Assembly (NCBI GenBank): GCA_002841695.1
Contig: PHAN01000021.1
Coordinates: forward strand, 1 to 53,695
DNA: 53,695 nt
Direction of reading: 5' to 3'
Origin: Elusimicrobia bacterium HGW-Elusimicrobia-1
GTDB lineage: Bacteria > Elusimicrobiota > Endomicrobiia > PHAN01
Shown here piece by piece: positions 8,345 through 47,732 of this stretch (positions are counted from its first letter, which is position 1; each line of letters begins with the position of its first letter). The position numbers and the translations under genes are program-made. The notes under the pieces were generated by a model. The model was not told where the DNA came from, searched no databases, and saw only the letters and a program-made list of their open reading frames with translations.

Positions 8345-9667
<1,323 letters not shown>

Positions 9668-9734: not shown

Positions 9735-9763
9735 ATTCTATCAAATGGCCGCGATATTTTAAA
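9735..9763 (-). promoter_or_regulatory. Candidate promoter for eno-ftsB-gatB
   Basis: On the minus strand, TTTAAA (9763-9758) and TAGAAT (9740-9735) are separated by 17 bases, about 85 bases before the eno start. The -35 is weak and overlaps the stop codon of the upstream gene. The 109-bp gap is the first real break after the tightly packed locus above, which makes a new promoter plausible. Confidence 0.35.
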
Positions 9764-11090
9764 AAACCCAGTCGGCGGCGGCAACGGCTTCGTCTATCGC
9801 GCCCGTCAGCCGCGCTGACGATTTTTCGTCCATATTCAGGGCGCCGCGGCGCAGGGCGTCGCGCATATTTTTAAGCTCTCTCAGCGCCTCCCTGCGGACT
9901 TTCGGCGAAGGATCGCGCCAGAGCGAGATGAGCATATCGAGAGTTTCGGGGAATGCCAGGCGGGAAAGCGCCCGGGCTATATTGGAGCGTATAAGCGGGT
10001 TGCCGTTTGAAACCATCTCCCTCAAAAAACTCATACAACCCGAACCCGATACCGAGTGAAGTTCTTTCGCCTGCGCCGCTATTCTCTCCCTGGCGGCTTC
10101 AAGAGCCGCCGAAGAATCCTCGTCGATATAAGTGGCGTCGCCTATCTTTTCTAAGACCTTGGCCCGATGTCCGTGCAGAACGGAGGTCTGCTTGCTCGAC
10201 GGTGAAAACGCGCCGCTCCTGAAGAGTTCCTCCAGCTGCTTTTGCCTTATATCCAGCGCCATTCCTAATTGTTCTTCGTAACGTTTATTCTTGGCATTTT
10301 TTTCTTCCTTTAATTCGGCGACGACACGCTCGGCTGTTTCCCTCTCGTATTTCAACGCCTCTTTTGTTTTTTCCAGTTCCATCATCTTCGTCTGCGACGC
10401 GGCCTTAAGTTTTTCGTTATCTTCCCCGGCGTCCGACAAAAGCGACGAATATTTTTTCATTTTTTTGACGAAAACAAGCCAGAATATCGCGTTGCCCGCA
10501 AGCGAAAACGCCGCTACCGCCGCAAATAGCGCGGCGACGTATACAACCGGCGAACGGCCTTCCGCGGACACGGGCGCGGCAACACGCTCGACGACATAAA
10601 CGGGAGGAGGCGGCGATTTCGGTGTTTGCGCGACTGTGGCGGACGGCGCGGCGGCGGCCGCCGGACGCGTTTTGGCCGGAGCGGCCGCGAAAGCGCGTTC
10701 CATTATGTTTTTTGTGACGTCGTACAAATTGGAGATTTTGCCGTCCGACGGATTGTAAGCGCGCGCCTTTTCCAGATAAGCCAGAGCTTTTTTGTAATCG
10801 CGCACGTTATGCGACTCCTGAGCCGCCTCGTAAAATATCCTGGCCGCGAATTCGGAAAGCTTGTGGTTGGACGGGTCGGAGGATACGGCTTTTTCCGCGT
10901 TGACCGCGGCCGAGTCAAGATCCCCCTGTATGTATTTTTCCGTCGCCGCGTTAAAATATATCGCGGATTCCGTCTCGCCCTCCGTTGCCTGCGCCGCGGC
11001 TGCCCGCGGCAAAGCCGAGACCGACAGCGCCAGCGCCGCGGCAAAAGCCATTCGCAGCCGCACGGCAAAACCGTCTCTGATATTTTTCAT
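9759..11090 (-). CDS. Membrane protein with periplasmic TPR-like, coiled-coil and HEAT-like regions
   Basis: I do not recognise this 443-residue protein as a named family. It begins with a signal-like segment ending near ALPRAAAAQA (residue 35). Next come TPR-like helices (about 40-135), a Pro/Ala-rich linker and a transmembrane helix (about 182-208, followed by VKKMKK). A long charged coiled coil spans about 212-292, and HEAT-like helices span about 352-412 (NPLIRSNIARALSRL, PSPKVRREALREL). The layout suggests a periplasmic TPR sensor or scaffold joined through the membrane to a cytoplasmic coiled-coil/HEAT module. It is last in the signalling/surface locus and overlaps the PorV-like gene by ATGA. 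A structural or signal-coupling role for that locus is an inference. Confidence 0.7.
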   Translation of the reverse strand: MKNIRDGFAVRLRMAFAAALALSVSALPRAAAAQATEGETESAIYFNAATEKYIQGDLDSAAVNAEKAVSSDPSNHKLSEFAARIFYEAAQESHNVRDYKKALAYLEKARAYNPSDGKISNLYDVTKNIMERAFAAAPAKTRPAAAAAPSATVAQTPKSPPPPVYVVERVAAPVSAEGRSPVVYVAALFAAVAAFSLAGNAIFWLVFVKKMKKYSSLLSDAGEDNEKLKAASQTKMMELEKTKEALKYERETAERVVAELKEEKNAKNKRYEEQLGMALDIRQKQLEELFRSGAFSPSSKQTSVLHGHRAKVLEKIGDATYIDEDSSAALEAARERIAAQAKELHSVSGSGCMSFLREMVSNGNPLIRSNIARALSRLAFPETLDMLISLWRDPSPKVRREALRELKNMRDALRRGALNMDEKSSARLTGAIDEAVAAADWVF

Positions 11091-12535
11091 TTTGCCTCCA
11101 TATCCATAACCGTCTGCACGCGCTTAAGAAATCCCAGCGCCTCGGAATTGGTCGGTTGAATTTTTATCGCCTCGTAAAGTTCGCCCTTGGCGTCATTGTA
11201 TTTTTTTTCCGCGACGTACATCCTGGCGCGGGCAAGATACGCGTACACCCGCGCCTTTTCGTGGTCGGGACGGACATCAATTATCCACAGGGCGTTTTCG
11301 ACCACGCTCTCATACCGGCCGTTTTTATAATCCGTTTCTATCTCGAGTATTTTTCTTTTTATAATAACCTCGCTCGTAATGGCTTTGATCTCGGCCATAA
11401 GGCGTTTCGCATCTTCGTTGGACGGTTCAATTTTTAATATTTCCGAGAGTTTGCCTTCGGCGCGGGCGTATTTTTTTTCGCCGAAGTCCCTCGATGCCGA
11501 TAAGTAAATCGCCGATATCTTTCTTTCTTTGGCCAGTCGGGCGCGCTCATCGGCGAGCAACTTTCTTTCAAGATTCGCCCTGGTCGAGGCGGCGGCCGAC
11601 GCTGCTCTCAAATTTTGGAATTCCTCTTCCGCGCGCAATTCCGCCGCCGACGGCTCCAGCGAAAACCTGCTTGTCACGGTAAAGGCGTGGACAATGCCCA
11701 GCGGGTGATAAAACATGCCGTAATCGAACGCCGCCCGACGGAAATCAAGCCCGAAACCGGCAGACACCGACTTTCTGTTGGCGCCGGCGCGCCACGTGAT
11801 TCCCCGCGGATATTCGCATTCTATGCCGGCAAACCATTTGAGCGCGGAATATTGCCAAAACAATCCCTGATACAGCAAATCGACGCTGACGGCGACGCGG
11901 CGAAAAGCAAAATATTGTTTGATACCCCCGCGCAGCGAAGGTCTTACGGCGTCGGCGCCCAGCGCCGACGGGACAACGCTTACGACGGCCAGGCCCGCTT
12001 CGGAATCTTTATTGCGTATCACAAATCCCGCGTCAAGCGTGCCGGCCGATACGGAATAGTCGGCGATTCTTTTGGCGTAATATTTTATCGCGGCGCCGGC
12101 GTAGAAACCTTCAAACAGGGCGGCAGAGTAACCCGCCGACATACCCGTCTCGGACGCGCCGAACGCTCCGGTGTCCTCGCCAAGTTCGTTTGTGCCGGCT
12201 ATGTCTTCAACGCTTACAGCCGAAACCGCGGCCCAGAGTGTTCTGTGGTTTTCAAGAGGCAGCGCGTAGGAAGCATTATAACAATTGACACCTTCAAAAA
12301 GCGGCGCGAATGTCAGGGAAATTTCTTCCCTGTACCGCGACGAAAATCCGGCCGGATTGAAATATTCAAAACCTACGCCGCCTGCGCCCGTCTGCGCAGC
12401 GGTCCGTCCCGAAGTTTCAAAATTGTCAAGCGCGTAGCCGGACGTTCCCCTGTCCTGGAACCAGGCCCCGGATTTGCGGGAACACGTCAATAGTGCAAGC
12501 GCTGCCAGAAAAACGGCGGCGCGCGGGTTTTTCAT
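11087..12535 (-). CDS. PorV/PorQ-type outer-membrane protein fused to C-terminal TPRs
   Basis: The first 300 residues, after a signal peptide ending near SGAWF, resemble the PorV/PorQ family of FadL-like barrels. They include the early GGVGFEYFNPAGFSS motif, alternating beta-strand segments and the late AGANRKSVSAGFGLDFRRAAFDYGMFYHPLG region. In Bacteroidetes PorV helps deliver type IX cargo to the surface. Residues about 300-340 are a charged helix, and 345-480 contain three TPR-like repeats (ARAEGKLSEILKIEPSNEDAK, NDAKGELYEAIKIQPTNSEAL), an unusual addition. It overlaps the receiver gene upstream and the coiled-coil gene downstream by four bases each. The cargo could be the kelch/FlgD-type protein of the same operon; this is an inference. 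Confidence 0.75.
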   Translation of the reverse strand: MKNPRAAVFLAALALLTCSRKSGAWFQDRGTSGYALDNFETSGRTAAQTGAGGVGFEYFNPAGFSSRYREEISLTFAPLFEGVNCYNASYALPLENHRTLWAAVSAVSVEDIAGTNELGEDTGAFGASETGMSAGYSAALFEGFYAGAAIKYYAKRIADYSVSAGTLDAGFVIRNKDSEAGLAVVSVVPSALGADAVRPSLRGGIKQYFAFRRVAVSVDLLYQGLFWQYSALKWFAGIECEYPRGITWRAGANRKSVSAGFGLDFRRAAFDYGMFYHPLGIVHAFTVTSRFSLEPSAAELRAEEEFQNLRAASAAASTRANLERKLLADERARLAKERKISAIYLSASRDFGEKKYARAEGKLSEILKIEPSNEDAKRLMAEIKAITSEVIIKRKILEIETDYKNGRYESVVENALWIIDVRPDHEKARVYAYLARARMYVAEKKYNDAKGELYEAIKIQPTNSEALGFLKRVQTVMDMEAK

Positions 12536-12900
12536 TTTTTAGTCACTTCCGATATCTTTTCCAGCAGCACGGATATCGGGAACGGTTTTTCCAGATACGC
12601 GGCTACGTTAAACTCGCTCTTGCTCTGCAAAAGTTCTTTCATTTTGGCGTGGGCGGTTATTACTATTACCGGAAGCGACGAGGCCGACGGCATTTCATTG
12701 AGACGGGCGCCGAATTCTCTGCCGTCCATTTTAGGCAGCATCAGATCCAAAACCACGACGTCGGGCGCGAAAGAAGAGAGTTTTTCGAGCGCGTCGACGC
12801 CGTCGCCGGCGGTCTCTACGGTGTGCCCCGATTTCAGCAGAGCCATTTCGATAATTTCGGCAATATCCTTTTCGTCCTCGACCACAAGTATTTTCGACAT
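12532..12900 (-). CDS. Single-domain response regulator (CheY-like)
   Basis: This is a 122-residue receiver domain with no output domain. Asp9 in VVEDE, phosphoacceptor Asp52 in VVLDLMLPKMDG, Thr82 and Lys105 in EKPFP form the full active site. I chose the ATG at 12900, which has GGAGG four bases upstream, rather than the longer frame from 12930. It lies between the kelch protein and the PorV-like gene and overlaps the latter by ATGA. It probably acts as a phosphate carrier or protein-interaction switch for the kinases encoded upstream in the same direction. Confidence 0.93.
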   Translation of the reverse strand: MSKILVVEDEKDIAEIIEMALLKSGHTVETAGDGVDALEKLSSFAPDVVVLDLMLPKMDGREFGARLNEMPSASSLPVIVITAHAKMKELLQSKSEFNVAAYLEKPFPISVLLEKISEVTKK

Positions 12901-12930
12901 AAATCCTCCCTGCGCGGCAATCGCCGACAT

Positions 12931-15900
12931 TTATCTTTTTATAACGGCCAGTTTTTTTCTGCGATTTTGTCCCCCTGCCGTAATTTCCAGAATATAAACT
13001 CCCGACGCGACAATCATACCTTCGTCGTTTTTGCCGTCCCACAATATTTCATTGACATATCCTGACGACTGGCGCATTGCCCCGTTCGAGCCGGCGGAAT
13101 ACCTCCGGCGGGTCACCAGATCCCCCGTAAGCGTGTAAATATTAATCTCTACGTCTGTCTCTACGCTGAGGGTGTAAATTATTTTCGTCTTTTCCTTGAC
13201 GGGGTCGAAAGGATTGGGATAGTTGGCGGGCGCCATCAGCCCGTAAGCCGGAGCGAGCGCCGCCACAACCGATATATACCCGACGCCATAAAGCACGGAA
13301 CGCAAACGCCCGTCGCCCACCGACGGTAAATCCCGCGCTAAAATCCATTTTGACGATGTTTCGTCGAGAAGCGCTATCCTGGCGTTTTTTTCCACGCTCA
13401 AAATCGAATCGCTCAGGTGCGCCCTTCTCGGAGCGGCAAACGCTCCGCCGGCCGAAGAATGCCCCGAGTCGTCCATCGCGGACGAATAGTCGTAAGTAAC
13501 TTCCAATTCGACTTCTCCCGCCGCCGGCAATTCGTTCATATCCGCGTCAAAAAAACCGATTTGGTAAATTTCGGCTTCGGCCAGCGCTTTGGTAAACGGG
13601 TCGCCGATGGTTTTAAGGTTGGCGGCGATGGCGGCCTCGACGGTCGACGGGTCGCGCCCGGCCACAAAAACAAACGCTTCCGCCGGAAGTCCTTTGCGCG
13701 CGCGGACCGTAAGCCGGTTGTCGTCGGTGGCGGCGCCGAACCGGTTGAGCGCGTAAAACTCGAAGGGGGCGGCGCAAAACGTCGTCTCGCCGAAGGGATC
13801 CCGCGCCGACACCCTCCAGTAATAGGTGGCATCGGGTATGATGTCCGAGGCGGACACAGGCAGCGGCGAGGCGGCCAGGCCGTCGGCGGCGACGGCCGCG
13901 GAAAAATTCGATGAAGTCGAATACTCCAGCCGATATGTTACGGCATCCTCGGGGTTTGGATCGACGGACGGCGCCCACTCAAAATAGAATCCAAGCGCGG
14001 AGCGGTATTTTTTGTCGGCGGGGGACAACAGAACGAAATGGCCGGGAGAAAGATTCAAATTATTGATTACGAAAGACCGCGGAAGCGACAAGCCGGACAA
14101 AGGCGGGTCGCCGTCGTCGGTAACTACTATCCGCGCCGAATAGAAAATGCCGTTCGGCAGCAGACGGGTATCGAGGTCGAAATAATCCGTCGAGGACGCA
14201 TAGACCCGGCCGTACGACGTTCCGCCGTCGGAGGAAATTCTTATTTCAGACGAATGTCTGTCGGCCAGGTTCGCGTCGACTATATTCCATTGAAACCGGC
14301 GGATGCCCGCAAGGACGGCGCCGGCGGACGGCGAAGAAACCGTCACGGTCGGCGACTCATTTGCGTTATTTACCGCAAACTCGCCGCTCACGGTCGCGCT
14401 CGAGGAGCCGAACGGCTCGTCGACGGCGGTAACCATAAGCGAATAAACTCCGTTCCGCAGACGGCGGGTGCTTAAAATATAATAAGTGGAAGATTTAGGC
14501 AGCGCCGAGGCGGTAAGCTCCGTTGCGAAACTTGACGCGCCGTCGGACGAGGCGAATATTCTGTGCGTGTAGTCGTCGTTCTCGGGATCCGACGACGTCC
14601 ACGATACGGAAACATCGCCCGAGACGGTTCCGGACGGCGATGCGCTCAGCGCCACCAGAGGCGGACGGTTTGTCGCCGCCGACGGCGATACGCCAGAAAT
14701 CGGGCCGAGGTTCCGCGCTCCGTCGCGCAGCCGCGCGTTGAAGTAATACGTCGAGGCGGCGGCGAGACCGGTTATGTCGATGTTAAGCGATGTCCCCGCC
14801 GGCATATTCGTTATGGCGACCGTCTTTGAGCCGGTCGCCGCGTTCCAGTCGTCTTCGGTGATTATCGGCGCGCTTGAGTATCTGACCATACAGGCGGCAT
14901 CGACAAGATTTCCCGACGCGCCATCGTCGCCCGACACTTGAAGAGAAAGAAATATCGCCCCGTTGACGTTGCCCCGCACCGCCGAGAAATCCGCCACGGC
15001 GGCCGGAGGGGTGGTGTCCACGCGGAAATCGTATGACGTAGACCACAATCCATAGTGCTGCCCGTCGGAAGCGCGGACCCGCCAATACCAATCGCCCTCG
15101 ACAAGAACCGCGCCGGGCGTGGATGTCACCGCGCTAAAACCCGCTCCGGCAATGCCCGCGCTCGAAAAAAACACCGGCGAAAACCCGGACAGCGAAGACA
15201 CTTGCATCTCATAAACGTCGACGGTATCGCCGTCGGGGTCGTCGGGACGGCTCCACGTGAAATACGGCGACGTCAAGCCGACTCTTTTGCCGGATACGGG
15301 ATACGACGAAACCGGCGCATAGGGCGGACGGTTGTAAACCAGTATTATTTCATCCACCGACGGGGACACCGGCGGCCTATCGGACGACATCCTGCATTTT
15401 ATTTTTATGTTGGGTTTGTTTCTCCAGTATGAGAGGTCGATATCCACGGGAGAGCCGTTGTAAACAAAAAACTGACCCGGATCGCCGCCCGGTCCGGCGA
15501 AATCGGTCCAGGCGACGCCGTCCGACGACGCCGCTATCTGAAAATCGCGCACGGTGCCGGATGGCGCCGGCGGCGGGGAAATGTCGAGCGTGAGCCATCT
15601 TATCCCCGTCGGCGTGAACTCGGATATTACATTGCTGACAAACGAGCCCGACGAGGCCGCCACGTATTTCCACGTATCGTTGCCGGGCGCTTCCGGGCCC
15701 GTGCCGCCGAATATCAAATTATACCCGCAATACGCCATTGCGGCTCCGTAACGGGCCGCGGGCGCGGCGTCGAGCGGAGCCGCGTTCCCCCATTGATTGG
15801 CGCGGACGCTGTAAGCCCATATTTCAGCGGAAACATACGGCGCGCCGTCAATCTGTCCGCCGAACAAAACCGCGCGATTCAAAAAACCGTCCCAGACAAA

Positions 15901-16809
15901 TCCGTGATACTGCCGCGAAACCGGCCTTACGGCGGGCGGCGGCATTTGCGTCCAGCTCGACGCTCCATAGGAGTAGTGCCAAGTATCGTCAAGTTTTGCT
16001 CCCGCGGAATTCGCCCCGCCAAAAAGTATGAGCGTGTCGGCGGACGGGTCATAGACCATGGCGGACGCCGCACGGGCCGTGGGAGTTGAAACCTGCTCAA
16101 CGTAATTCCATTGCTGCGCGGCGACATCGTAATACCACAAGTCCCTGTGCGTGACGTTGTCTTCGGACTGTCCGCCGAAAATGTAGACCCTGTTTCTTGC
16201 CGTGTCAAACGCCGAGGCGCAATGCGCCCGGGAAGATGGCTCCACGGAAAAAAACAGACGCTGCCACGAATTGGCGGCAACGTCGTATAGGTGCGTATCG
16301 CCCAGAAACGATCCTCCGTCGAGCCCGCCGAACACAAGGAAAGCGTCGGCGCCCGCCGCAACGGCCGTATGCGCGTACCTGGCCGACGGCGAGGCCGCGG
16401 CGCTGCGCTGCGTCCATTTGACTTCTGACGGGTCGTAGAGCCAAAAATCGTTCAGGCCCGACGGGTTGGCGGAATTCCTTCCGCCGTGCAAAAAAACCGC
16501 TCCGCCCGCCGCGGCAGGCGGAGCCGCCGCGGCGGCGTAATATCGCGCGGAAGGCCCCGATATGACGAACTGCGTCCACCTGTTTTCCATTGACAGTGAA
16601 GCCGCTTCGCCGGAGCCGGTGACCACCACGTTATCCTTCTGAAAGAAAGAAAACTCGGTATCCGTAGAGAATGTTTTTGTGGACGCGGCGAATGCCTCAG
16701 AGCGCAGAAAAGTCGGCGACAGCGCGGCAATGGCCGTCGACAGCAATAGAACGATGAAAGGGTTATGCCTCATCGGTCGCACCTGTCGGAGATTCCGCGG
16801 AACAATCAC
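12931..16809 (-). CDS. Secreted kelch-propeller / FN3-like / FlgD-type C-terminal domain protein
   Basis: This is a 1292-residue exported protein. After a signal peptide (from MRHNPFIVLLLS, ending near SEAFAA) there are six kelch motifs (about residues 88-385), each with a FGG or HGG turn and a W six to ten residues after a DxxxYD element, enough for one full propeller. A discoidin-like beta region and several FN3/Ig-like modules follow (about 390-1030). The end carries NYPNPFDP and a FlgD-Ig-like segment (IYTLTGDLV, WDGKNDEGMIVASGVYIL), which serves as a sorting or anchoring domain in type IX-type secretion. The GTG at 16809 overlaps the upstream receiver stop (GTGA). An ATG at 16773 behind CAGGTG is an alternative that gives a cleaner signal peptide. 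It may be a surface adhesin or glycan-binding protein; no catalytic site is evident. Confidence 0.82.
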   Translation of the reverse strand: MIVPRNLRQVRPMRHNPFIVLLLSTAIAALSPTFLRSEAFAASTKTFSTDTEFSFFQKDNVVVTGSGEAASLSMENRWTQFVISGPSARYYAAAAAPPAAAGGAVFLHGGRNSANPSGLNDFWLYDPSEVKWTQRSAAASPSARYAHTAVAAGADAFLVFGGLDGGSFLGDTHLYDVAANSWQRLFFSVEPSSRAHCASAFDTARNRVYIFGGQSEDNVTHRDLWYYDVAAQQWNYVEQVSTPTARAASAMVYDPSADTLILFGGANSAGAKLDDTWHYSYGASSWTQMPPPAVRPVSRQYHGFVWDGFLNRAVLFGGQIDGAPYVSAEIWAYSVRANQWGNAAPLDAAPAARYGAAMAYCGYNLIFGGTGPEAPGNDTWKYVAASSGSFVSNVISEFTPTGIRWLTLDISPPPAPSGTVRDFQIAASSDGVAWTDFAGPGGDPGQFFVYNGSPVDIDLSYWRNKPNIKIKCRMSSDRPPVSPSVDEIILVYNRPPYAPVSSYPVSGKRVGLTSPYFTWSRPDDPDGDTVDVYEMQVSSLSGFSPVFFSSAGIAGAGFSAVTSTPGAVLVEGDWYWRVRASDGQHYGLWSTSYDFRVDTTPPAAVADFSAVRGNVNGAIFLSLQVSGDDGASGNLVDAACMVRYSSAPIITEDDWNAATGSKTVAITNMPAGTSLNIDITGLAAASTYYFNARLRDGARNLGPISGVSPSAATNRPPLVALSASPSGTVSGDVSVSWTSSDPENDDYTHRIFASSDGASSFATELTASALPKSSTYYILSTRRLRNGVYSLMVTAVDEPFGSSSATVSGEFAVNNANESPTVTVSSPSAGAVLAGIRRFQWNIVDANLADRHSSEIRISSDGGTSYGRVYASSTDYFDLDTRLLPNGIFYSARIVVTDDGDPPLSGLSLPRSFVINNLNLSPGHFVLLSPADKKYRSALGFYFEWAPSVDPNPEDAVTYRLEYSTSSNFSAAVAADGLAASPLPVSASDIIPDATYYWRVSARDPFGETTFCAAPFEFYALNRFGAATDDNRLTVRARKGLPAEAFVFVAGRDPSTVEAAIAANLKTIGDPFTKALAEAEIYQIGFFDADMNELPAAGEVELEVTYDYSSAMDDSGHSSAGGAFAAPRRAHLSDSILSVEKNARIALLDETSSKWILARDLPSVGDGRLRSVLYGVGYISVVAALAPAYGLMAPANYPNPFDPVKEKTKIIYTLSVETDVEINIYTLTGDLVTRRRYSAGSNGAMRQSSGYVNEILWDGKNDEGMIVASGVYILEITAGGQNRRKKLAVIKR

Positions 16810-17177
16810 TCGAGCAACTTGGCGAGTATCGCCGTGCGCAAATATTTAAGGTCGAAGGGCTTGAATATACAGTCGTACGCCCCCATGCGAAACGCGTTTA
16901 CCACTTTATCCGCGTCGCGGTACGCCGTAATCATTATGACGTTAATACCGGGCTTGATTTCCTTGATTTTCTTAAGCGCTTCTATGCCGTCCATCCCCGG
17001 CATCGCAAGATCCAGAAGAACAAGATCGACGGGAAACTCCCTGACCTTTTCCACCGCCTGCTCGCCCCTGTTGGCGGTATAAACCCTGAAACCTTCTTGC
17101 GACAGGAATTCTCCGAGCACAAGCACAATATCGGACTCGTCGTCGACTACCAAAATACCGCTTTTTTTCTCCGGCAT
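16806..17177 (-). CDS. Single-domain response regulator (CheY-like)
   Basis: This is a 123-residue receiver-only protein. Asp12/Asp13 in VVDDE, phosphoacceptor Asp56 in LLDLAMPGMDG, Thr84 and Lys106 in FKPF are all present. The ATG at 17177 has a perfect AAGGAGGT seven bases upstream, which decides the start over the in-frame codon at 17207. It precedes and overlaps the kelch-protein gene by GTGA, so the two are probably translated together. Its sequence differs clearly from the second receiver at 12532-12900, so they are not recent duplicates. Confidence 0.93.
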   Translation of the reverse strand: MPEKKSGILVVDDESDIVLVLGEFLSQEGFRVYTANRGEQAVEKVREFPVDLVLLDLAMPGMDGIEALKKIKEIKPGINVIMITAYRDADKVVNAFRMGAYDCIFKPFDLKYLRTAILAKLLE

Positions 17178-17298
17178 ACTCTCAACCTCCTTTATTATTT
17201 TCCGCAAAGAGCCCGTCTCGAAACTATTTTCCCGTCGGAGAATTCAGGGTCTGAAATATTTTTGCCCTCCTGCCGTCCCCGACGATACTTTTATTTCA

Positions 17299-17354
17299 CC
17301 CTCACCTGCCCTTCGGGCTTCCTCTCCCCTCGATGGAGAGGATTGAGGTGAGGG
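17299..17354. repeat. Branched palindromic intergenic repeat
   Basis: CCCTCACCT (17299-17307) and AGGTGAGGG (17346-17354) form a 9-bp outer stem. Inside are two smaller stems: GCCC-TTC-GGGC and CCTCTCC paired with GGAGAGG. The cloverleaf-like layout resembles dispersed palindromic repeats found in many bacterial intergenic regions. It occupies the 195-bp gap between the receiver-kinase gene and the receiver gene and could attenuate transcription there. Nothing else is seen in this gap. Confidence 0.7.
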
Positions 17355-17372
17355 GGTAAGTTTTGTGACCGG

Positions 17373-18488
17373 CTATACCGGCAGCGTAAACGACACCGTC
17401 GTGCCTCGGCCGAGGCCCGCAGATTCGGCGCTGATTTTCCCGCCGTGAAGTTCCACTATTTTTTTTGCTATCGAAAGCCCCAGCCCGAAGCCGCCGGCGT
17501 CGCGCTTCATCGACTGGTCCACCCTGAAAAACTGTTCGAATATTTTTTCCATATTCTCGGAGGCCACGCCTATGCCATCGTCGGTTACACTCATAATAAC
17601 TTCGTCCTCGGACATCCCCGACAATGCCACCGTGACCTTTCCGCCCGGGCGGTTGTATTTTATGGCGTTGGTCATAAGATTGGTTACGACCCTTTTTATC
17701 TGCTCGCGATCAAAGCTGGCGACGGCATCCGCCGCCGGCGGGATTATTTCGACGCCTTTGGCCTCCGCTATGGGACGGATTTCAGCGATAACTTCGTCCG
17801 TAACCGAGGCCAGCGAAACCGTGGTTTTTTTGATATCCGCCCTGCCGGCCTCCATACGGGCAAAGTCCAGAATATCTTCCACCAGCGATTTCATTTTTCG
17901 CGCCTGCCTGTCGATAATACCCAGGAATTTTTTCATGTCGCCGTCGGATGCCCGACGGACCGCGACACGCCGGTCGCCATCCGCGGGTGTCTGCATCCCC
18001 AAAAGTTCTATCGCCCCCGAAATGGCCATAAGAGGAGTTTTAAGTTCGTGCGTAACCGTGGAGATAAACTCGTCCTTGAGGCGATCCATTTCCTCCAGGG
18101 AAACGAGCCGCGACTTCAGTTCGCCTATGGCAACCGCCTTTTCAAGCGTGGCCAGCATTTCACCTGTCTCAAAGGGCTTTATAAGATAATCGACGGCGCC
18201 CTTGCGCAAACACTCCACGGCTGTATCTATGGTGGCGTGCGCCGTCATAACTATAACTTCGGCGGAAACACCGGCGGACTTTATTTTTTCCAACAGTTCC
18301 ATTCCGCTCATATCGGGCATACGCAAATCCGTAATGATGACATCATACGGCTCACGCAAAATTTTTTCGAGCGCCAGGTCGGCGCCGGTGCTCGACGAAG
18401 CGTCGTAACCGTTCTTAACGAGAACTTTTTCAATAAACTTTACTATTTCCGCTTCGTCGTCTACGACAAATATTTTTTTGGGTTTCAT
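17373..18488 (-). CDS. Receiver-histidine kinase (REC-HisKA-HATPase)
   Basis: This is a 371-residue cytoplasmic protein with an N-terminal receiver domain (phosphoacceptor Asp54 in IITDLRMPDMSG, Lys in IKPFE). A short coiled linker leads to a HisKA domain with His147 in FISTVTHELKTP. The catalytic ATPase domain has an N box NLMTNAIKYNRPGG, a DDGIGV G1 box, an FFRV F box and GGFGLGLSI. Such proteins are controlled by phosphorylation of their own receiver and extend a phosphorelay. GAGGAGA stands six bases before the ATG at 18488. It follows the PAS/GAF kinase gene, whose reading frame ends 18 bases upstream just after a poly-G run. Confidence 0.94.
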   Translation of the reverse strand: MKPKKIFVVDDEAEIVKFIEKVLVKNGYDASSSTGADLALEKILREPYDVIITDLRMPDMSGMELLEKIKSAGVSAEVIVMTAHATIDTAVECLRKGAVDYLIKPFETGEMLATLEKAVAIGELKSRLVSLEEMDRLKDEFISTVTHELKTPLMAISGAIELLGMQTPADGDRRVAVRRASDGDMKKFLGIIDRQARKMKSLVEDILDFARMEAGRADIKKTTVSLASVTDEVIAEIRPIAEAKGVEIIPPAADAVASFDREQIKRVVTNLMTNAIKYNRPGGKVTVALSGMSEDEVIMSVTDDGIGVASENMEKIFEQFFRVDQSMKRDAGGFGLGLSIAKKIVELHGGKISAESAGLGRGTTVSFTLPV

Positions 18489-18506
18489 CGTTTCTCCTCA
18501 CGCGAT

Positions 18507-21032
18507 CTAATCATAATACTCCCCCCCCCCCCCCCCCCCCCCCCCCAATTCGGCGCCTTTTCCGGGACCTTCGGAATTCGCCGTTATCTCTCCGCCATGC
18601 TGTTTTACGATACCGTAAGAAATCGAAAGTCCCAGACCCACACCCTTTTTTTTAGTGGTAAAAAACGGATCGAATATTTTTTTTAGCGCCGCCGGTTCCA
18701 CGCCTATGCCGTTGTCTTTGAAAGTAACTTTGATATTTTCCGGCGTGTTCGACGGGTGCGCCGTCGTACTTATAACAAGCGTCCCGCCCGACGGCATCGC
18801 CTTGCGCGCGTTCATTACTATGTTGAGAAACACCTGCGCCATGTGAGACGACGAGAATACAACCTTGGGAAGTTTGCCGAAACGCTTTTCGACTTTTATG
18901 CCGCTCAATTCCAGTTGTTTCCCGTAAAGAGAAAGCACTTTTTCCAGCTCCGCGTTTATGTCGGCCGAGACAAACTTCATCTCGCGCTGTCTTGAAAAGT
19001 CCATCAGATCTTCTATGATTTTTTTCGCGTGCAGAGCGGCGTTTCTTATGGCTTCGTTTTCTTCTCTCTTGCCCTCGGTCAGCAGAAGTTCGGCGTTGCC
19101 CAGAATCGTCTGCAGCGGATTGCCTATTTCGTGGGCCAGCCCCGCGGCAAGTTCTCCGACGGAAGCCATCTTTGCGCTCTGCAGCATCTGAAGATACAGA
19201 CGCGCCCTGTCCTTCTCCATTCTCGCGCGCTCATACGCCCATGATATTATCCGGGTGGCGGTTCCGAGCATATCCACATCGCACGGCTGCCATTGTCTGA
19301 TATTGACACATTCGTCGAAGCCGATAAAACCGAAATACTCCGAATGGACGAATATGGGAAAAACCAGCGCCGATTTTGTTTCCTTCACGCACAATATGCT
19401 TTTTGCGCTTTCAGAAGAAAATTTATCGTTATCGCCGAACCGGATAACCTGCTTTTTTTTAAGCTTGCCAATCCACTGCGGCATTGCCGCCGCCGGAACG
19501 GCTTGCATAGTGTCTTTTTGCGGCATGATTCCGGGAGCGCACCACTCGTGTGTATTGTCCATTGTATCCGTATCCGCATTATGCGCGAAAATATAGCCCC
19601 TGCACACACCGAGCGTGCTGCATATAAGAGCCAGCGCGCCATCCAGAAATTCTCCGATATTTTCGCTGACGACCGCCGCGGCGGATATATCGGCCAGCAT
19701 TTTTTCGTACGTCACGCGCTTCTTCAGATCGTCCTCGGCGGTCTTGCGGTCGGTGATGTCGCTCAACGTTGCCCTTATTCCGGCCGGATTGCCGTCGACG
19801 TGATAGATTTTGCCCAGTGTTCTTACCCACCGGTAGTTGCCGTCGGCGGACTTCACGCGGCATTCAAGAGGGTACTGTTTGCCGTTGAAACAGTCGGCAA
19901 ATGCGGCCGAGACTGAGGCCGCATCGTCGGGATGCAGCATTTTTGTGTAATGCTCCCCCACCACGTCCGACGGCGAACAGCCCAAAAGCGACTTTACGGC
20001 CGAACTCGCGTAGGTAATGACGCCCGATGCGTCCACCGAATATATTACGTCGCTTATACTCTCCACAAGCTCGCGATATTTCTCCTCGGAACGAGCGAGT
20101 TTGACTTCCTTGATTTTATCGAACACCACGAACTTCGCAAGATTGACTATCTCTTCAAAGTCCGTCGTGTCCTCGTCGGTAAAATCGGTATTTTTGTTTA
20201 TCGCCTCCACGACTCCGAAAAGTTTTGACGCCTCTATCACGGGCACGGCCAGAATCCTGCCGGTTTTATATCCCGTGGCGGCATCGACATCCGGACAAAA
20301 GTTCGGATCCGTCGGCGCGTCGTTTGTGCGGTAGGGCTTTCCGGTGCGGGCGACGTAACCCGCTATGCCTTTGCCGTTTTCAAGCGTAATACCCGATGTC
20401 ATATCGGAGGCGTAAGCGGATTTAAGCGTGTCGCCTTCGGAGATGTAAAAAGTGACCCTTTGCACGGACAAAAAATCTTTAACGAGTTCCCCCACCCTTC
20501 CCAGCACTTTTTCAACGGAAATATTCTCAAGCGACAGCAAAGAAATTGTTTTGAGCAAATCAAGTTTCCGGATGTTTTGCTTGATCTGACGCATATCGCG
20601 CGCCAACCCCAGAACGCCCGTAATTTCCCCTTGACCGTCGCGCAGCACGACCCCGTTGAAGTTCATTGGAATCCGGCGGCAATCTTTGGTCAGAAATACG
20701 ACTTCCAGATCATTGACGTAGCCGGAAAGCACAAGTTCGTCGAGTATCCTGCCCAGAAACCGCTCGTCGTCCTTTTGCGTAGGCGCTCCCACCGTACAAA
20801 ACGGGTCGTTACGGTGCTTTACGAAAAACATGCTCGCCGACTGCCCCAATATTTCCTCGCGGGAATATCCCAGCAACTTACAGCACGCCAGATTGACGGA
20901 CGTAACCGTGCCCCGCCGGTCTATGATAATGAGAGAATCGGGCAGATGGTCGGAGACCTTATCGAAACTCAGTTCCGCGCCGGAAGACGGCTTCATAAAA
21001 AATTTAGAAAAAAATTTGTCCAAAAATATCAT
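18507..21032 (-). CDS. PAS-GAF-PAS-GAF sensor histidine kinase ending in poly-Gly
   Basis: This is an 841-residue soluble sensor kinase. Domains in order are PAS (about 22-140), GAF (150-310), PAS (325-440), GAF (450-610), then HisKA with His634 in GLAHEIGNPLQ and an ATPase domain with NIVMNARKAM, DNGIGV, FDPFFTTK and GVGLGLS. There is no transmembrane helix; the N-terminus IFLDKFFSKFF could be a membrane-surface helix. The ATPase domain should end in a strand like AEFKILLPL, as in the neighbouring paralogue. Here the gene enters a 26-base G run and ends as eight glycines plus EYYD, so the last strand is missing. The ATG at 21032 has AGGAG nine bases upstream and lies three bases after the previous gene's stop. 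It probably feeds the receivers in this locus. Confidence 0.9.
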   Translation of the reverse strand: MIFLDKFFSKFFMKPSSGAELSFDKVSDHLPDSLIIIDRRGTVTSVNLACCKLLGYSREEILGQSASMFFVKHRNDPFCTVGAPTQKDDERFLGRILDELVLSGYVNDLEVVFLTKDCRRIPMNFNGVVLRDGQGEITGVLGLARDMRQIKQNIRKLDLLKTISLLSLENISVEKVLGRVGELVKDFLSVQRVTFYISEGDTLKSAYASDMTSGITLENGKGIAGYVARTGKPYRTNDAPTDPNFCPDVDAATGYKTGRILAVPVIEASKLFGVVEAINKNTDFTDEDTTDFEEIVNLAKFVVFDKIKEVKLARSEEKYRELVESISDVIYSVDASGVITYASSAVKSLLGCSPSDVVGEHYTKMLHPDDAASVSAAFADCFNGKQYPLECRVKSADGNYRWVRTLGKIYHVDGNPAGIRATLSDITDRKTAEDDLKKRVTYEKMLADISAAAVVSENIGEFLDGALALICSTLGVCRGYIFAHNADTDTMDNTHEWCAPGIMPQKDTMQAVPAAAMPQWIGKLKKKQVIRFGDNDKFSSESAKSILCVKETKSALVFPIFVHSEYFGFIGFDECVNIRQWQPCDVDMLGTATRIISWAYERARMEKDRARLYLQMLQSAKMASVGELAAGLAHEIGNPLQTILGNAELLLTEGKREENEAIRNAALHAKKIIEDLMDFSRQREMKFVSADINAELEKVLSLYGKQLELSGIKVEKRFGKLPKVVFSSSHMAQVFLNIVMNARKAMPSGGTLVISTTAHPSNTPENIKVTFKDNGIGVEPAALKKIFDPFFTTKKKGVGLGLSISYGIVKQHGGEITANSEGPGKGAELGGGGGGGGEYYD
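18521..18546. repeat. 26-base homopolymer (C on plus, G on the coding strand)
   Basis: A run of 26 C residues on the plus strand lies inside the last codons of the sensor-kinase gene read on the minus strand. With 26 bases the protein ends in glycines and EYYD. With 27 it would end in VL. With 25 it would run on to SIMIRSREEKR, with its stop overlapping the start of the next gene (ATGA). Such runs mutate easily by slippage. It may also be a sequencing or assembly artefact. Confidence 0.9.
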
Positions 21033-21035
21033 CTT

Positions 21036-23153
21036 TTAAGCTCCTGAGCTTGCCGGCGGCGCCTTAAGAGGCAAAAGAATCTTAAACTCGGCGCCTTTTC
21101 CCAAACCGGCCGAATACGCAGTTATACGACCGCCGTGCTGTTTGACTATTCCATAACTGACGGACAAACCCAAACCCGTTCCGCCTTTGCGCATACTGAA
21201 AAACGGCTCAAACAGACGCCCGATTTGCGCCGGGTCTATTCCGTCGCCGGTATCGGTGAAAACAACCGCTGCATAATCCCGCGAAGTTCCTTCGTCCGAA
21301 GATATATTTTCCGCGGACAAAGGCGGGTTATATTCCGGCCGCGTTTCAATGGTAAGGGTTCCTCCGTGGGACATGGCCTTGCGGGCGTTGGTGATTATAT
21401 TTATAAAAACCTGGGAAAGATGGGAGGGGGATACCGATACCGGCGGAAGCGGAGCGTATTTTTTTTCTATCCTTATTCCGCCGAGTTTCAACTGCTTGCC
21501 GTAAAGCGACAGTGTTTTGTCTACGATGTCGGCGACTGAAGTCGACACGAAACACATTTCACTCTGCCGCGCGAAACCAAGCAGATTTTCTATGATTGTT
21601 CCGGCGTGCCGCGCCGCGGAGAGTATAGAGTCGACCTCTTCGCCGCTTCCGGTATGCCGGAGAAGCTCGGCATTGCCCAGAATCGTCTGCAGCGGATTGC
21701 CTATTTCGTGGGCCAGCCCCGCGGCAAGTTCTCCGACGGAAGCCATATGCCCGGAGCGCACAAGCCGCATCTTAAGATTCTCCTTCTCTTTTTGGGCAAG
21801 TACGCGTTCCGTGATGTCTCGCGCGATGCCTTCAATGGCTACAAGACGTCCCGCGTCGTCGTAAATCGGGACGTTTTTCTGCTCAACCCATATAATTTTG
21901 CCGGATTTTGTCAGCCACCTTGTTTGCGCGGGCCGCAAGAAGTCCTTGCCATCGCCCGCGAGCGCGGGCCGGTCGTCGGGATAGACCATTTCGAACCCCA
22001 GATTTGGATTCTTATAATGCTCTTCCGGAGAGTACCCCGTTATTTTTTCCACCGACGGACTCACGTATTCAAAAGCCATTTCCGGCGCCAAGCGCACGCG
22101 GTAAATTATATCGGCGGCGTTCTCGGCCAGAAGCCGGAATCGCTCTTCGTTTTTCTTAAGAAGATTGAGCGTTTCGTGATGCGTCAGCGCCACGGAGGCC
22201 TGAGCGATGAATGTCTCCACCACCGGAATTTCGACAGACACGCCGCGCCGCAGGGCCAGGGCCGCCAAACCCAGAAGACGTCCTGAATACGATATGCCCG
22301 CCACATATATTTTGTCGACCGAAAGCAAACTCGCTATTTTTTGCGCAACGACGCGCGACAACTTTCCCTGAAACAATTCCTCAACTCCGCCGCGCAGTTC
22401 TATCAGCCGTCCTTCCAAAAGCTTGTCGTAGACATCCTGCGACACCGGAAATTCCGTTTTCCGGAACTCACCGGGCGCAAATCCTAAAATAAATTCAAAT
22501 ACGGACGGAAAAGCCGATTTGGCGCGCGGCGTTAAAACGCGGCGGGCCGGATTATAAATATTAACGAAAACCGGCGAATCGCCGGCCAGAATGCTCAGCC
22601 GGTCGGAAATTACCCGATAGATATCGTCGGAATCTTTAAGACCTACGTACATCACCGCCGTCGCTGCCATTATTTCCTGCGCCCGCGCCGCCGCCCTTAT
22701 TTTCTCCTCGGCGGCCCGGCGCTCCGCGACGTCCCTGAATATCATCGCGCCGGCCGTAACCGCCCCCGTCGAATCCTTGACCGGCGAACAGCTTATCTCC
22801 GCTTCCGCGCGTTTGCATCCGGGCAAGACCAGAATCGCCGGAAAAAGCGGCAACGCCGCGCCCCGCGAAACGGCATCCGCTATGCGGTCATAATCATAGC
22901 GATCGGCAAAAAACCGCGAAGCGTCAGCGCCCAATATTTTGTCGCGGCGAGCGCCGCACAACGACTCGAAAGCCGCGTTGGCGTCAATAACTTTGCCTTC
23001 GGGCGAAACAAGCAGAAAACCGTCGCTCATCGACGAGATTATGTTATCCGCCGCCGTGGAGCGCGTCGCGGAAGTCGTATGGTATCTGCGCCCGAACGTA
23101 AAAGCCAGCGCTATGGCAACCGCCGAAAGTGTCAAAAAAAACAGCCAAAACAT
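21036..23153 (-). CDS. Membrane-anchored PAS-GAF-PAS sensor histidine kinase
   Basis: This is a sensor kinase of about 705 residues. One N-terminal transmembrane helix (MFWLFFLTLSAVAIALAF) leads to a PAS domain (about 40-150), a GAF-like region (165-335), a second PAS with PAC (345-460), HisKA with HEIGNPLQ near residue 480 and an ATPase domain with NIITNARKAM, DTGDGI, FEPFFSM and GTGLGLS. It ends in a normal GAEFKILLPL strand plus a short tail. I chose the ATG at 23153, which overlaps the upstream stop as TAATG; an in-frame GTG lies at 23165. Its H-box DNA is identical over 74 bases to that of the next kinase gene, pointing to duplication or gene conversion. It is probably the partner of the HTH-receiver regulator just upstream. 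Confidence 0.92.
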   Translation of the reverse strand: MFWLFFLTLSAVAIALAFTFGRRYHTTSATRSTAADNIISSMSDGFLLVSPEGKVIDANAAFESLCGARRDKILGADASRFFADRYDYDRIADAVSRGAALPLFPAILVLPGCKRAEAEISCSPVKDSTGAVTAGAMIFRDVAERRAAEEKIRAAARAQEIMAATAVMYVGLKDSDDIYRVISDRLSILAGDSPVFVNIYNPARRVLTPRAKSAFPSVFEFILGFAPGEFRKTEFPVSQDVYDKLLEGRLIELRGGVEELFQGKLSRVVAQKIASLLSVDKIYVAGISYSGRLLGLAALALRRGVSVEIPVVETFIAQASVALTHHETLNLLKKNEERFRLLAENAADIIYRVRLAPEMAFEYVSPSVEKITGYSPEEHYKNPNLGFEMVYPDDRPALAGDGKDFLRPAQTRWLTKSGKIIWVEQKNVPIYDDAGRLVAIEGIARDITERVLAQKEKENLKMRLVRSGHMASVGELAAGLAHEIGNPLQTILGNAELLRHTGSGEEVDSILSAARHAGTIIENLLGFARQSEMCFVSTSVADIVDKTLSLYGKQLKLGGIRIEKKYAPLPPVSVSPSHLSQVFINIITNARKAMSHGGTLTIETRPEYNPPLSAENISSDEGTSRDYAAVVFTDTGDGIDPAQIGRLFEPFFSMRKGGTGLGLSVSYGIVKQHGGRITAYSAGLGKGAEFKILLPLKAPPASSGA
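21673..21746. repeat. 74-bp identical segment shared with 19096-19169
   Basis: The 74 bases coding for the H-box region (ASVGELAAGLAHEIGNPLQ and flanks) are identical to 19096-19169 in the neighbouring kinase gene, while the flanking sequence differs. The identity includes synonymous positions, so it is more than protein-level conservation. Confidence 0.85.
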
Positions 23154-23761
23154 TAATCCACCCACGCCGCTTCAGGAGCGAGCGATAATATTGTCTTTTT
23201 AAGCTCCGCTATGTCGAAAGGTTTGACCAGAAATGCGTCGGCTCCCGCGGCAAGTATTTTCCGCCGCGTCTCGTCCGACGGAAAAGCGCTGATGGCCAGT
23301 ATCTTCATATTGCGTTTTTTAAGCCGCCGAAGAACCTCAAAGCCGTCTATACCCGGAAGTTTAATGTCGAGTATGAGAACATCGGGCCTGAACTCGGCTA
23401 TTTTTTCGCCGGCTTCCAGGCCGTCGGACGCGACCGCCACGCTGACGTTCTTTATAATGTGCTCGACGGCCGTCGCCACAAAATGCAGAACACCCGCGTC
23501 GTCGTCCACCGCCAGAACTTTGAGCGGCGCTCGGACGGAGGCCGCGCCGGTATCGGCGATCATCTTAGCTATTTCCTCTGCCTGCGGAAGCGAATACTTT
23601 TCGGCAAACTCCCGTAAGTCCGACAACTTGATGCGCCGATGGCCGCCGGGTGTTTTATATGCCGCGATCCTGCCCGCGTTGATCCAGTTGATAACCGTGC
23701 TGATATCGACGCTCAGAATCTTGGCCGCCTCAAACGTCGTGATAACTAGCTCACTGTTCAT
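23153..23761 (-). CDS. HTH (MerR/excisionase-like)-receiver transcription regulator
   Basis: This is a 202-residue regulator with an unusual domain order. An N-terminal winged helix-turn-helix of the MerR/BldC/excisionase type (about 5-60, TTFEAAKILSVDISTVINWINAGRI then TPGGHRRI) is followed by a linker. A C-terminal receiver with phosphoacceptor Asp132 in LILDIKLPGIDG and Lys in VKPFD completes the protein. Most response regulators have the receiver first. I chose the ATG at 23761, behind AAGGA; the frame is open to a TTG at 23779. It heads the signalling/surface locus and overlaps the sensor-kinase gene by one base. A 17-bp palindrome 38 bases upstream is a likely operator, suggesting self-regulation. 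Phosphorylation by the adjacent kinase is inferred. Confidence 0.9.
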   Translation of the reverse strand: MNSELVITTFEAAKILSVDISTVINWINAGRIAAYKTPGGHRRIKLSDLREFAEKYSLPQAEEIAKMIADTGAASVRAPLKVLAVDDDAGVLHFVATAVEHIIKNVSVAVASDGLEAGEKIAEFRPDVLILDIKLPGIDGFEVLRRLKKRNMKILAISAFPSDETRRKILAAGADAFLVKPFDIAELKKTILSLAPEAAWVD

Positions 23762-24010: not shown

Positions 24011-24296
24011 AAACCGGTATTTGTCATTCCGAGTCCTTCGCGATGTCATCCTGAGTCCTTCGGCGAGCGTCATTCTGAGTCCTTCGGCAAGCGTCATTCT
24101 GAGTCCTTCGGCAAGCGTCATTCTGGGTCCTTCGGCGAGCGTCATTCTGAGCGTAGCGAAGAATCTCATAATGCCTCAGGATAAACTCCGCGTATTTTCT
24201 CGCCGACAAGCGAGACCCTTCCCCCGCATCAAGCGCGGGGTCAGGGTGACAAAAGCAAAGGGTTCAGGGGAACATTTTGGACACTTTTTCAATTGA
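24011..24296. repeat. Composite dispersed repeat, copy A
   Basis: This is one of four related intergenic elements (others at 26488-26711, 33127-33371 and 40545-40807). One end reads ACCGGTATTTGTCATTC and the other GGACACTTTTTCAATTGA. In between are blocks built from GTCATTCTGAGTCCTTCGG, GCGTAGCGAAGAATC and CAGGGTGACAAAAGC. The 582-bp gap between 23761 and 24344 otherwise holds only the palindrome at 23799. Open frames across the element encode iterated LRMTLAEG-type peptides and are not genes. Confidence 0.85.
24045..24140. repeat. Tandem 24-bp repeat (four units) inside copy A
   Basis: Four consecutive 24-base units of the type GTCATTCTGAGTCCTTCGGC plus four bases start at 24045, 24069, 24093 and 24117, with a truncated fifth at 24141. 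Units differ at one to three positions. There are no spacers, so this is not a CRISPR array. Confidence 0.88.
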
Positions 24297-26487: not shown

Positions 26488-26711
26488 GTCAATTGAAAAA
26501 AAACCGTTTTTTGTCATTCTGAGTCCTTCGGCAAGCGTCATTCTGGGTACTTCGGCGAGCGTCATTCTGAGCGTAGCGAAGAATCTCATAATGCCTCAGG
26601 ATAAACTCCGCGAAGAATCTCAGTTTTTCGCTCAGGAGAGACCCTTCGTTTCACTCAGGGTGACAAAACCGAAGGGTTCAGGGTGACATTTTTGGACACT
26701 TTTTCAATTGA
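26488..26711. repeat. Composite dispersed repeat, copy B
   Basis: Copy B has the same orientation as copy A. It starts GTCAATTGAAAAAAAACC, contains GTCATTCTGAGTCCTTCGG units and CAGGGTGACAAAACC, and ends TTTGGACACTTTTTCAATTGA. CAATTGA is present at both ends. The 347-bp gap between genes here holds this element and a weak promoter candidate. Confidence 0.85.
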
Positions 26712-33126: not shown

Positions 33127-33371
33127 CAATTGAGTCAGTTGAAAAAGTATCCAAAATATCACCCTGAACCTTTCGCTTTTGTCACCCTGACCCCGCGCTT
33201 GATGCGGGGGAAGGGTCTCGCTTTGGCTCGTCGGAAAACTAGATTCTTCGCGGAGTTTATCCTGAGCGAAAAACTGAGATTCTTCGCTTCGCTCAGAATG
33301 ACATCGCGAAGGACCCAGAATGACGCTCGCCGAAGGGCTCAGAATGACAAATAACGGGTGGTTTCAATTGA
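33127..33371. repeat. Composite dispersed repeat, copy C (inverted relative to A and B)
   Basis: The element runs from CAATTGAGTCAGTTGAAAAAGT, through ACCCTGAACCTTTCGC, a GCGGAGTTTATCCTGAGCG palindromic block and TTCGCTTCGCTCAGAATGAC, to AATGACAAATAACGGGTGG and TTTCAATTGAGTC. It inserts between the DUF58 and BatA-like genes of one functional module. Apart from it, the 295-bp gap holds only a short AT-rich leader. Confidence 0.85.
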
Positions 33372-40544: not shown

Positions 40545-40807
40545 GTCAATTGAAAAAGTGCCCAAAATGTCACCCTGAACCTTTCGCTTTTGTCACCCTG
40601 AGTGAAACGAAGGGTCTCGCTTTGGCTCGTCGGAAAACTAGATTCTTCGCGGAGTTTATCCTGAGCGAAAAACTGAGATTCTTCGCGGAGTTTATCCTGA
40701 GCGAAAAACTGAGATTCTTCGCTTCGCTCAGAATGACATAGCGAAGGACTCAGAATGACGCTCGCCGAAGGTCTCAGAATGACAAATAACGGGGGTTTTC
40801 AATTGAC
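40545..40807. repeat. Composite dispersed repeat, copy D (same orientation as C)
   Basis: The element starts GTCAATTGAAAAAGTGCCC and includes ACCCTGAACCTTTCGC. It carries two tandem copies of a roughly 42-bp block around GCGGAGTTTATCCTGAGCG, then TTCGCTTCGCTCAGAATGAC, and ends AATGACAAATAACGGGGG and TTTTCAATTGACTC. It fills most of the 308-bp gap between parB and the lipoprotein gene. Confidence 0.86.
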
Positions 40808-47048: not shown

Positions 47049-47732
47049 CTACTGAAGTGTCTGAGGTTTGACTTCCACAATTCCGCGGGTAACCGCCTGC
47101 TTGGCCGCGGCCGAAAGCCCCGCGTTCCATTCCTTCATCTCATCCAAGTCCAATCTCTTGACGACCACGTCCACCCGACGGTTCTTGGCGCGGTTTTCGG
47201 GAGTATCGCCGGGTGAGACGGGATGATATTCGCCGTATCCGGAGGCGGTAAGCCGCTTCGGCTCGAAAGATAAATCCTCGAGCATAAATCTCAAAAGATT
47301 TGTGGCGCGGGACGTGGAGAGTTCCCAGTTCGACGGAAACTGCGACGTTCGTATGGGAGTGTTATCGGTATGGCCCTCTATGGTTATTCTGTTGGGGTCG
47401 TCGGTAAGAAGCGACATTACGTCTCTGATTATCGTCTTGGCTTCGGGATAGATTTCGGCTTTTCCCGGGTCGAACATATACTTTTCGGAAAACGTTATTA
47501 TCAAACCTTCCTTCTGCGAGAGTTGTGTGGAAACAAACGACTGCAGGGAATTCGCCAGGACGTAACCGTCTATCCTCTCTTTGATTTTCTTGAGTTGGTC
47601 CTCGGTAGCCGCGGCGGAAAGAGCGAAAAGCATGACGAAAAACACCAGCAGCTGCGTGACGAGGTCGCCGTAGGATGTCATCCACTGAGGTGTAGGAGGC
47701 GGCTTAGCTTCTTCTATTTTTTGAAGTGCCAT
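47049..47732 (-). CDS. motB: Flagellar motor stator protein MotB
   Basis: MotB anchors the stator to peptidoglycan and carries the ion-binding aspartate. The 227-residue protein has a short cytoplasmic N-terminus, one membrane helix starting PQWMTSYGDLVTQLLVFFVMLFALS with the essential Asp23, a linker with a plug-like helix, and an OmpA-like domain with ITIEGHTDNTPI, NWELSTSRATNLLRFM and ENRAKNRRVDVVV. It follows motA by 73 bases. No ribosome-binding site is evident. The ion used cannot be decided from this alone. Confidence 0.94.
   Translation of the reverse strand: MALQKIEEAKPPPTPQWMTSYGDLVTQLLVFFVMLFALSAAATEDQLKKIKERIDGYVLANSLQSFVSTQLSQKEGLIITFSEKYMFDPGKAEIYPEAKTIIRDVMSLLTDDPNRITIEGHTDNTPIRTSQFPSNWELSTSRATNLLRFMLEDLSFEPKRLTASGYGEYHPVSPGDTPENRAKNRRVDVVVKRLDLDEMKEWNAGLSAAAKQAVTRGIVEVKPQTLQ

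Follow-up and report, generated by a model that had tools for sequence, protein, structure and literature searches.

A conserved gene block of Elusimicrobiota may connect two-component receivers to a PorV-family barrel and a type-IX-like surface protein

Introduction

The closest described counterpart of the locus studied here is the type IX secretion system (T9SS) of the Bacteroidota, with its PorV/PorQ shuttles and its PorX/PorY regulators. One account describes type IX secretion as restricted to the Bacteroidetes-Chlorobi-Fibrobacteres group (PMC12421860). Shuttle proteins are often encoded beside their own cargo, and cargo-shuttle gene pairs are known from Flavobacterium (PMC12618676). The CheY-like T9SS regulator PorX directly binds the motor subunit PorL/GldL (PMC5005315, PMC10951265) and so sets a precedent for receivers that act on machinery of the envelope. 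Further points of comparison are the Agl-Glt and Gld/Spr gliding machineries, in which a trans-envelope chain runs from the inner membrane to a surface protein with receiver proteins nearby, and the flagellar switch and stator.

Here we describe a nine-gene block on the minus strand (9759-23761) of a window of 53,695 nucleotides, by which we mean the whole stretch of DNA analysed, from Elusimicrobia bacterium HGW-Elusimicrobia-1 (genome G000). The single parts of the block are known families. Like the T9SS, it has a PorV/PorQ-family barrel, a type A C-terminal signal and CheY-like receivers. A SprA-like ORF lies elsewhere in the genome, as a distant match under the family cut-off. Unlike the T9SS, it unites signalling, cargo and shuttle, and its host phylum is the Elusimicrobiota. 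A long helix and tetratricopeptide repeats (TPRs) are fused to its PorV, which is paired with a TPR-TM-coil-HEAT protein, and its receivers stand alone, whereas PorX combines CheY with PglZ. GldM was not detected in any genome, by a model that is uninformative here since the control genomes were silent as well.

The block resembles Agl-Glt and Gld/Spr in its proposed trans-envelope chain and, in three relatives, in the motor genes attached to it, a MotA and two of MotB type, which come with a gene for a long coiled-coil protein. However, the homology is limited to single domains, the window locus has no motor gene, and its uncultured hosts are not known to be motile. Sister modules of the same genomes share homologous FliG_M/FliG_C and MotA/MotB domains with the flagellum, but their FliG is a membrane-anchored fusion encoded beside PorV and a surface protein, and FlhA was found in none of 60 genomes. 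A survey of the literature for T9SS, PorV, FliG, MotA, gliding and histidine kinases in Elusimicrobia, with preprints and many subscription papers outside its scope, found no description of such a block, nor of any type IX component from the phylum, in agreement with the original prediction that this composition fits no system known by name.

Results

Nine genes on one strand

All nine minus-strand open reading frames were found where the original prediction had placed them, in the transcription order HTH-REC, kinase 1, kinase 2, REC-kinase, REC1, kelch, REC2, PorV-TPR and HEAT. Pfam searches returned the anticipated three kinases and four receiver domains and bore out the predicted domain content, except that kinase 1 has plain PAS domains and no GAF match. 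The statement that most junctions overlap by 1-4 bases was too strong, being true of only three or four of the eight. HTH-REC and kinase 1 overlap by 1 base, and both REC2/PorV and PorV/HEAT by 4 bases; REC1 and kelch overlap by 4 bases if kelch starts at GTG, or lie about 33 bases apart if it starts at ATG. Kinase 1 and kinase 2 are separated by 3 bases, kelch and REC2 by 0-30 bases, and kinase 2 and REC-kinase by 18 bases as assembled, a junction that is a 4-base overlap in the sister species.

The largest gap, of about 165-195 bases, separates REC-kinase from REC1 (17178-17372) and contains an inverted repeat and a weak promoter-like sequence (17221-17194). It may be an internal promoter or a processing site. 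The gene upstream of the block is divergent. Downstream, about 109 bases from HEAT, lies an enolase gene (8345-9649), which we rejected as a block member because it adjoins the 3' side of HEAT only within the genus. Tandem repeats of 24 bp, and one of 36 bp, are dispersed between genes of the window (24023-24151, 26513-26571, 33291-33349, 40634-40784), for example GTCATTCTGAGTCCTTCGGCGAGC.

The block is conserved across the phylum

A profile search of 341 genomes of the phylum recovered a kelch ortholog in 31, at one locus each and in 13 families. All 31 also gave a HEAT-profile match at E <= 1e-8, that of G231 being weak, and 27 of the 31 have kelch, PorV and HEAT together on a single contig. 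Contig ends apparently cut up the block of the remaining genomes (G001, G230, G231, G337); the kelch gene of G001 is itself cut, and its 3' part adjoins REC2-PorV-HEAT. PorV adjoins kelch wherever the contig continues. A PorV-TPR search of 60 relatives gave full-length matches in ten genomes.

Within the class, most loci on contigs that continue have the order REC1-kelch-REC2-PorV-HEAT on one strand, usually with REC-kinase next to REC1; in G002, REC-kinase directly precedes kelch and REC1 is elsewhere. In other classes we found REC-kinase-kelch-REC2-PorV-HEAT (families f27 and f29) and REC-kinase-REC2-kelch-PorV-HEAT (f16, f17 and f18), while G338 repeats the whole window order, REC1 excepted. 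A locus in a far-apart family (L216) reads HTH-REC, kinases, REC-kinase, kelch, REC2, PorV, HEAT. Outside the phylum, a metagenome-assembled genome (MAG) labelled Caldiserica (B21_G15, L107) has kinase-REC-kinase-REC1-kelch-REC2-PorV, and its kelch protein is the most divergent branch of the kelch tree; possible readings are a wider spread of the block, transfer or a mislabelled MAG.

In the kelch tree genomes cluster by family, a pattern that inheritance of the whole block together would produce. Pairwise distances correlate at r = 0.96 for kelch and PorV and at 0.73-0.87 for the other family pairs, values that are confounded by shared ancestry and do not count as proof here. The original prediction had staked the coherence of the locus in advance on finding its gene order in relatives; the order proved strongly conserved across the phylum. 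Judged by gene content and order, block conservation exceeds chance and the nine-gene locus is supported as one unit.

Signalling genes

The first gene, HTH-REC (23153-23761), matches Pfam HTH_17 (6e-14; MerR/excisionase-type) and Response_reg (3e-25), and is likely the DNA-binding response regulator of the locus; a homologue also heads the block in two other loci (L099 and L216). Kinase 1 (21036-23153) contains two PAS domains, HisKA and HATPase_c (Pfam) behind an N-terminal hydrophobic helix (residues 4-22 of the ORF). Its catalytic part shares 58% identity with that of kinase 2, and it is probably a lineage-specific duplicate, since it is missing at the sister species' locus. Kinase 2 (18507-21032) is soluble, with the Pfam architecture PAS-GAF-PAS-GAF-HisKA-HATPase_c. 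A run of 26 G (minus strand, window 18521-18546) replaces the end of its ATPase domain, and past this run another frame reads SIMIRSREEKR up to a stop codon, with a 4-base overlap onto REC-kinase. We rejected a conserved phase-variation switch because the sister species' copy of kinase 2 lacks the run; an assembly or sequencing artefact appears likelier than a phase-variable tract.

REC-kinase (17373-18488) combines a receiver with HisKA and HATPase_c (Pfam) and adjoins the kelch or REC gene in nearly all relatives. Otherwise the kinases vary more than any other part of the block. One of them is missing from G001; G000 and G008 have them upstream, whereas they follow HEAT in G024, G042 and G049, as they do in families f8 and f11, and are divergent in G004.

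The remaining two signalling genes, REC1 (16806-17177) and REC2 (12532-12900, adjoining PorV/HEAT), encode stand-alone receivers by Pfam, each a single domain of at most 133 aa with no PglZ domain. REC1 is 61-67% identical across the class, with an invariant acidic pair, Asp, Thr and Lys in the alignment. It is confined to this class and two MAGs labelled as other phyla, where it lies in the block (Caldiserica, L107) or occurs without one (Firestonebacteria, L109). REC1 was rejected as a fixed part of the block, being missing from the blocks of other classes. REC2 is 36-72% identical across the class and remains with HEAT where kelch and PorV have been lost (L168, L218). The two receivers thus flank the secreted-protein gene as originally described, but they are not equivalent, REC1 being restricted and REC2 travelling with the HEAT gene even where kelch is gone; the likelier partner of REC2 is therefore the HEAT protein, not the surface protein.

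The translations of the kinases and receivers, and the alignments of REC1 and REC2, show intact His, Asp, Lys and ATP-site motifs. The phosphorelay that had been proposed is not established, because no Hpt domain is among the Pfam matches of the nine proteins and a gene flanked by receivers does not amount to a relay, although phosphoryl groups might be relayed through proteins from genes outside the locus.

The surface protein, its barrel and a membrane-spanning partner

The kelch gene (12931-16773) encodes a kelch/Ig/FlgD-like protein with a signal peptide, a kelch propeller (about residues 95-390), Ig/FN3-like repeats and a T9SS type A C-terminal domain. Its C-terminus gives a weak Pfam match to Por_Secre_tail and passes the NCBIfam model of the T9SS type A sorting domain, TIGR04183, at 30.4 bits against a cut-off of 23, as do matches at two further loci (L208, 27.2 bits; L107, 25.3 bits). 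Elsewhere in the same genome, an ORF of 1692 aa (G000:C15; L139:4109-9187) gives collinear distant matches to SprA, the best at 55.8 bits against a cut-off of 200. Such SprA-like matches occur in 45 of the 60 relatives, all far under the family cut-off, and a sequence search of the ORF against solved structures, SprA included, gave no match.

PorV-TPR (11087-12535; 482 aa) comprises a PorV/PorQ-family barrel (residues 70-291), a helix of 56 residues and a predicted periplasmic TPR domain (356-481). It matches the PorQ/PorV family model NF033709 (NCBIfam) at 64.6 bits, under the cut-off of 90, which orthologs pass at 115.9 (L206) and 114.1 bits (L208). An AlphaFold2 (AF2) model has 14 long strands, the 56-residue helix and the TPRs (mean pLDDT 75.8, pTM 0.48), and its best matches in the PDB are two PorV chains of the Flavobacterium type IX translocon (8gl6_F and 6h3i_F), one of them with bound substrate. 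The modelled barrel thus has the 14-stranded FadL-type fold of the PorV/PorQ family. With the type A C-terminal domain, this fold and the distant SprA-like ORF, export and surface display of the kelch protein by a type-IX-like route is supported, though not proven.

The HEAT protein (9759-11090) is predicted to carry a signal peptide, TPRs (41-135), a linker, a transmembrane helix (185-203), a coiled coil of about 90 residues and a HEAT cap (327-437). In its AF2 model (pLDDT 74.4, pTM 0.32) the signal helix and TPRs 41-135 are followed by a disordered linker, a helix of 110 residues that starts with the membrane span, and the cap. Both models were built from alignments of 7 sequences and have modest global confidence. 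By the positive-inside rule, the signal peptide together with basic residues that follow the membrane span would make the TPRs periplasmic and the coil and cap cytoplasmic. The protein is 22-58% identical across the class, and Foldseek searches with it matched only generic TPR and helical-repeat proteins. These data support the prediction that the locus pairs a surface protein with an outer-membrane protein of the PorV family and a scaffold in the inner membrane.

A lineage without the surface protein and the barrel

Family f10 provides a natural deletion. The locus of G038, a genome 97% complete, reads HTH-REC, kinase, coiled-coil protein, REC-kinase, REC, REC1, REC2, HEAT and kinase; it contains no kelch or PorV gene, and no ortholog of either was found elsewhere in the genome. 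The HEAT protein of G038 keeps its signal peptide, transmembrane helix, coil and HEAT cap and is missing its TPR domain, so that at this locus (L168) TPR loss coincides with the loss of PorV and kelch. Its relative G058 has only REC2 left, still adjacent to a TM-HEAT protein. The co-loss, seen in one lineage, represents one or two events, perhaps one. In the simplest reading, the periplasmic TPR of HEAT exists to meet PorV, and REC2 belongs with the cytoplasmic part of HEAT. From the co-loss we infer a PorV-HEAT contact through the TPRs, and from the retained adjacency a contact between REC2 and HEAT.

A trans-envelope model

We tentatively favour the reading, to which we give slightly less than an even chance, that the block is a trans-envelope module placing a surface protein under two-component control, with the stand-alone receivers acting on HEAT and, by way of PorV, on the surface protein. 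The kelch/Ig protein would be exported by Sec and would then cross the outer membrane by means of its type A C-terminal signal and a type-IX-like translocon, to be held at the surface by its dedicated PorV-family barrel. The long helix and TPRs of PorV would extend into the periplasmic space and there bind to HEAT through its own TPRs, while HEAT would span the inner membrane with its coiled coil and cap facing the cytoplasm. REC2, and in this class also REC1, may dock on the coil or cap in a phosphorylation-dependent manner, with the PAS/GAF kinases and REC-kinase setting receiver phosphorylation and HTH-REC tuning expression. The PAS/GAF sensors, the absence of any sensor domain in the periplasm and the pairing of a receiver with HEAT suggest that the main direction is inside-out, such that the cytoplasmic state would switch how the surface protein is assembled, where it is placed or how active it is. 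The role of that protein is probably attachment to, or movement on, surfaces. Counting against this model are the single lineage behind the co-loss, the modest global confidence of both AF2 models, the low score of the SprA-like ORF and its failure to match a solved structure, the room that the REC-kinase/REC1 gap leaves for a separate promoter, and the variability of the kinases.

Motor genes beside the block and FliG-containing modules

In three relatives (G024, G042 and G049) a MotA-MotB-MotB set and a long coiled-coil protein are encoded directly upstream of the block. The MotA proteins of these genomes form a clade (support 100/99) with a MotA of G002 (G002:C78) whose neighbours are a paralog of PorV-TPR and a FliG_C-domain protein. 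As the FliG-like genes of the three genomes (G049:C1, G024:C17, G042:C115) have no adjoining MotA, the motor genes appear to have been relocated between these two types of locus. A LarC-like gene, recognized by N-terminal sequence only, lies just upstream of the motor/coiled-coil part in two families (L034, L168).

A sister module was found in the same genome as the window (L121; G000:C2:150000-169000) and in several relatives (L123-L132, L169, L174). It comprises a surface protein with a T9SS-type C-terminal domain (about 1800-2300 aa where whole), PorV-TPR, a membrane-anchored FliF_C/FliG_M/FliG_C fusion, MotA, MotB and MotB. A second recurrent module (L161, at G000:C11:54000-72000; L162, L163 and L175) encodes a small CTD-like protein, PorV-TPR, a FliF/FliG/TPR protein of about 600 aa, a protein of 1546-1851 aa, of which the 1546-aa form has no Pfam match, and a proline-rich protein. 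Because FlhA is absent from all 60 genomes, with four control genomes positive, the FliG/MotAB modules are not flagella and lack flagellar export; the sister module is possibly a new non-flagellar motor. Separately, the window holds a MotA/MotB pair (47049-48612) on a different branch from the FliG-linked ones.

These observations raise the alternative that the block provides both steering and coupling for a non-flagellar machine which, powered by MotA/MotB, moves type-IX-like surface proteins, as in gliding, with HEAT taking the place of the FliF/FliG-like fusion of the sister module. The motor set upstream of the block, its shared clade, the FliG-like genes left without a MotA of their own, the composition of the sister modules and the absence of FlhA all point this way, as do the lack of a CheW match in G000, which has a FliG module (G000:C2), and the retention by f10 of FliG modules together with the cytoplasmic half of the block. 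However, neither the window nor the majority of relatives have a MotA beside the block, and FliG modules are present without the block in G005, G010 and G013. We keep this explanation as a rival, and an unlikely one, because G004 and G008 have the block and no FliG_C protein, though each has one MotA/MotB pair. In a fuller version, which is similarly unlikely, the block would both control and couple a surface motor of a non-flagellar, undescribed kind. Through FliG-like or HEAT adaptors, its MotA-MotB-MotB stator would move type-IX-like surface proteins, held by PorV, across the envelope, and stand-alone receivers would do the steering in place of a chemotaxis array.

Discussion

The trans-envelope module, our preferred if tentative reading, also has to be weighed against an opposite flow of information, in which the kelch propeller would bind an external polymer or surface, PorV-TPR and HEAT would signal to the kinases, and HTH-REC would alter expression. 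The unbroken series of TPR proteins that would link outer membrane and cytoplasm, a transcription-type regulator within the locus and the N-terminal membrane helix of kinase 1 would all suit such an outside-in sensor. Yet the kinases have PAS/GAF sensors of their own and no periplasmic domain, their number and place vary, and what stays with HEAT is REC2, an acceptor and not a kinase; we consider this direction improbable. Least probable of all is a plain operon of T9SS-like cargo, shuttle and anchoring protein under a neighbouring two-component system, with signalling and envelope parts physically unlinked: HTH-REC within the block and the Flavobacterium cargo-shuttle gene pairs speak for it, but it is not obvious what two output-less receivers would do if transcription alone were controlled, REC2 remains with HEAT after cargo and shuttle are lost, and the HEAT protein of G038 retains its cytoplasmic coil and cap when the periplasmic part is gone.

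Taken together, the block suggests that the Elusimicrobiota, a little-studied phylum, own a type-IX-related form of surface display with trans-envelope wiring to cytoplasmic receivers. It offers a testable case of a response regulator that may signal straight to an outer-membrane protein with no gene-expression step. In addition, the FliG/MotAB sister modules, found in genomes that lack FlhA, would bear on the kinship of flagellar and gliding motors.
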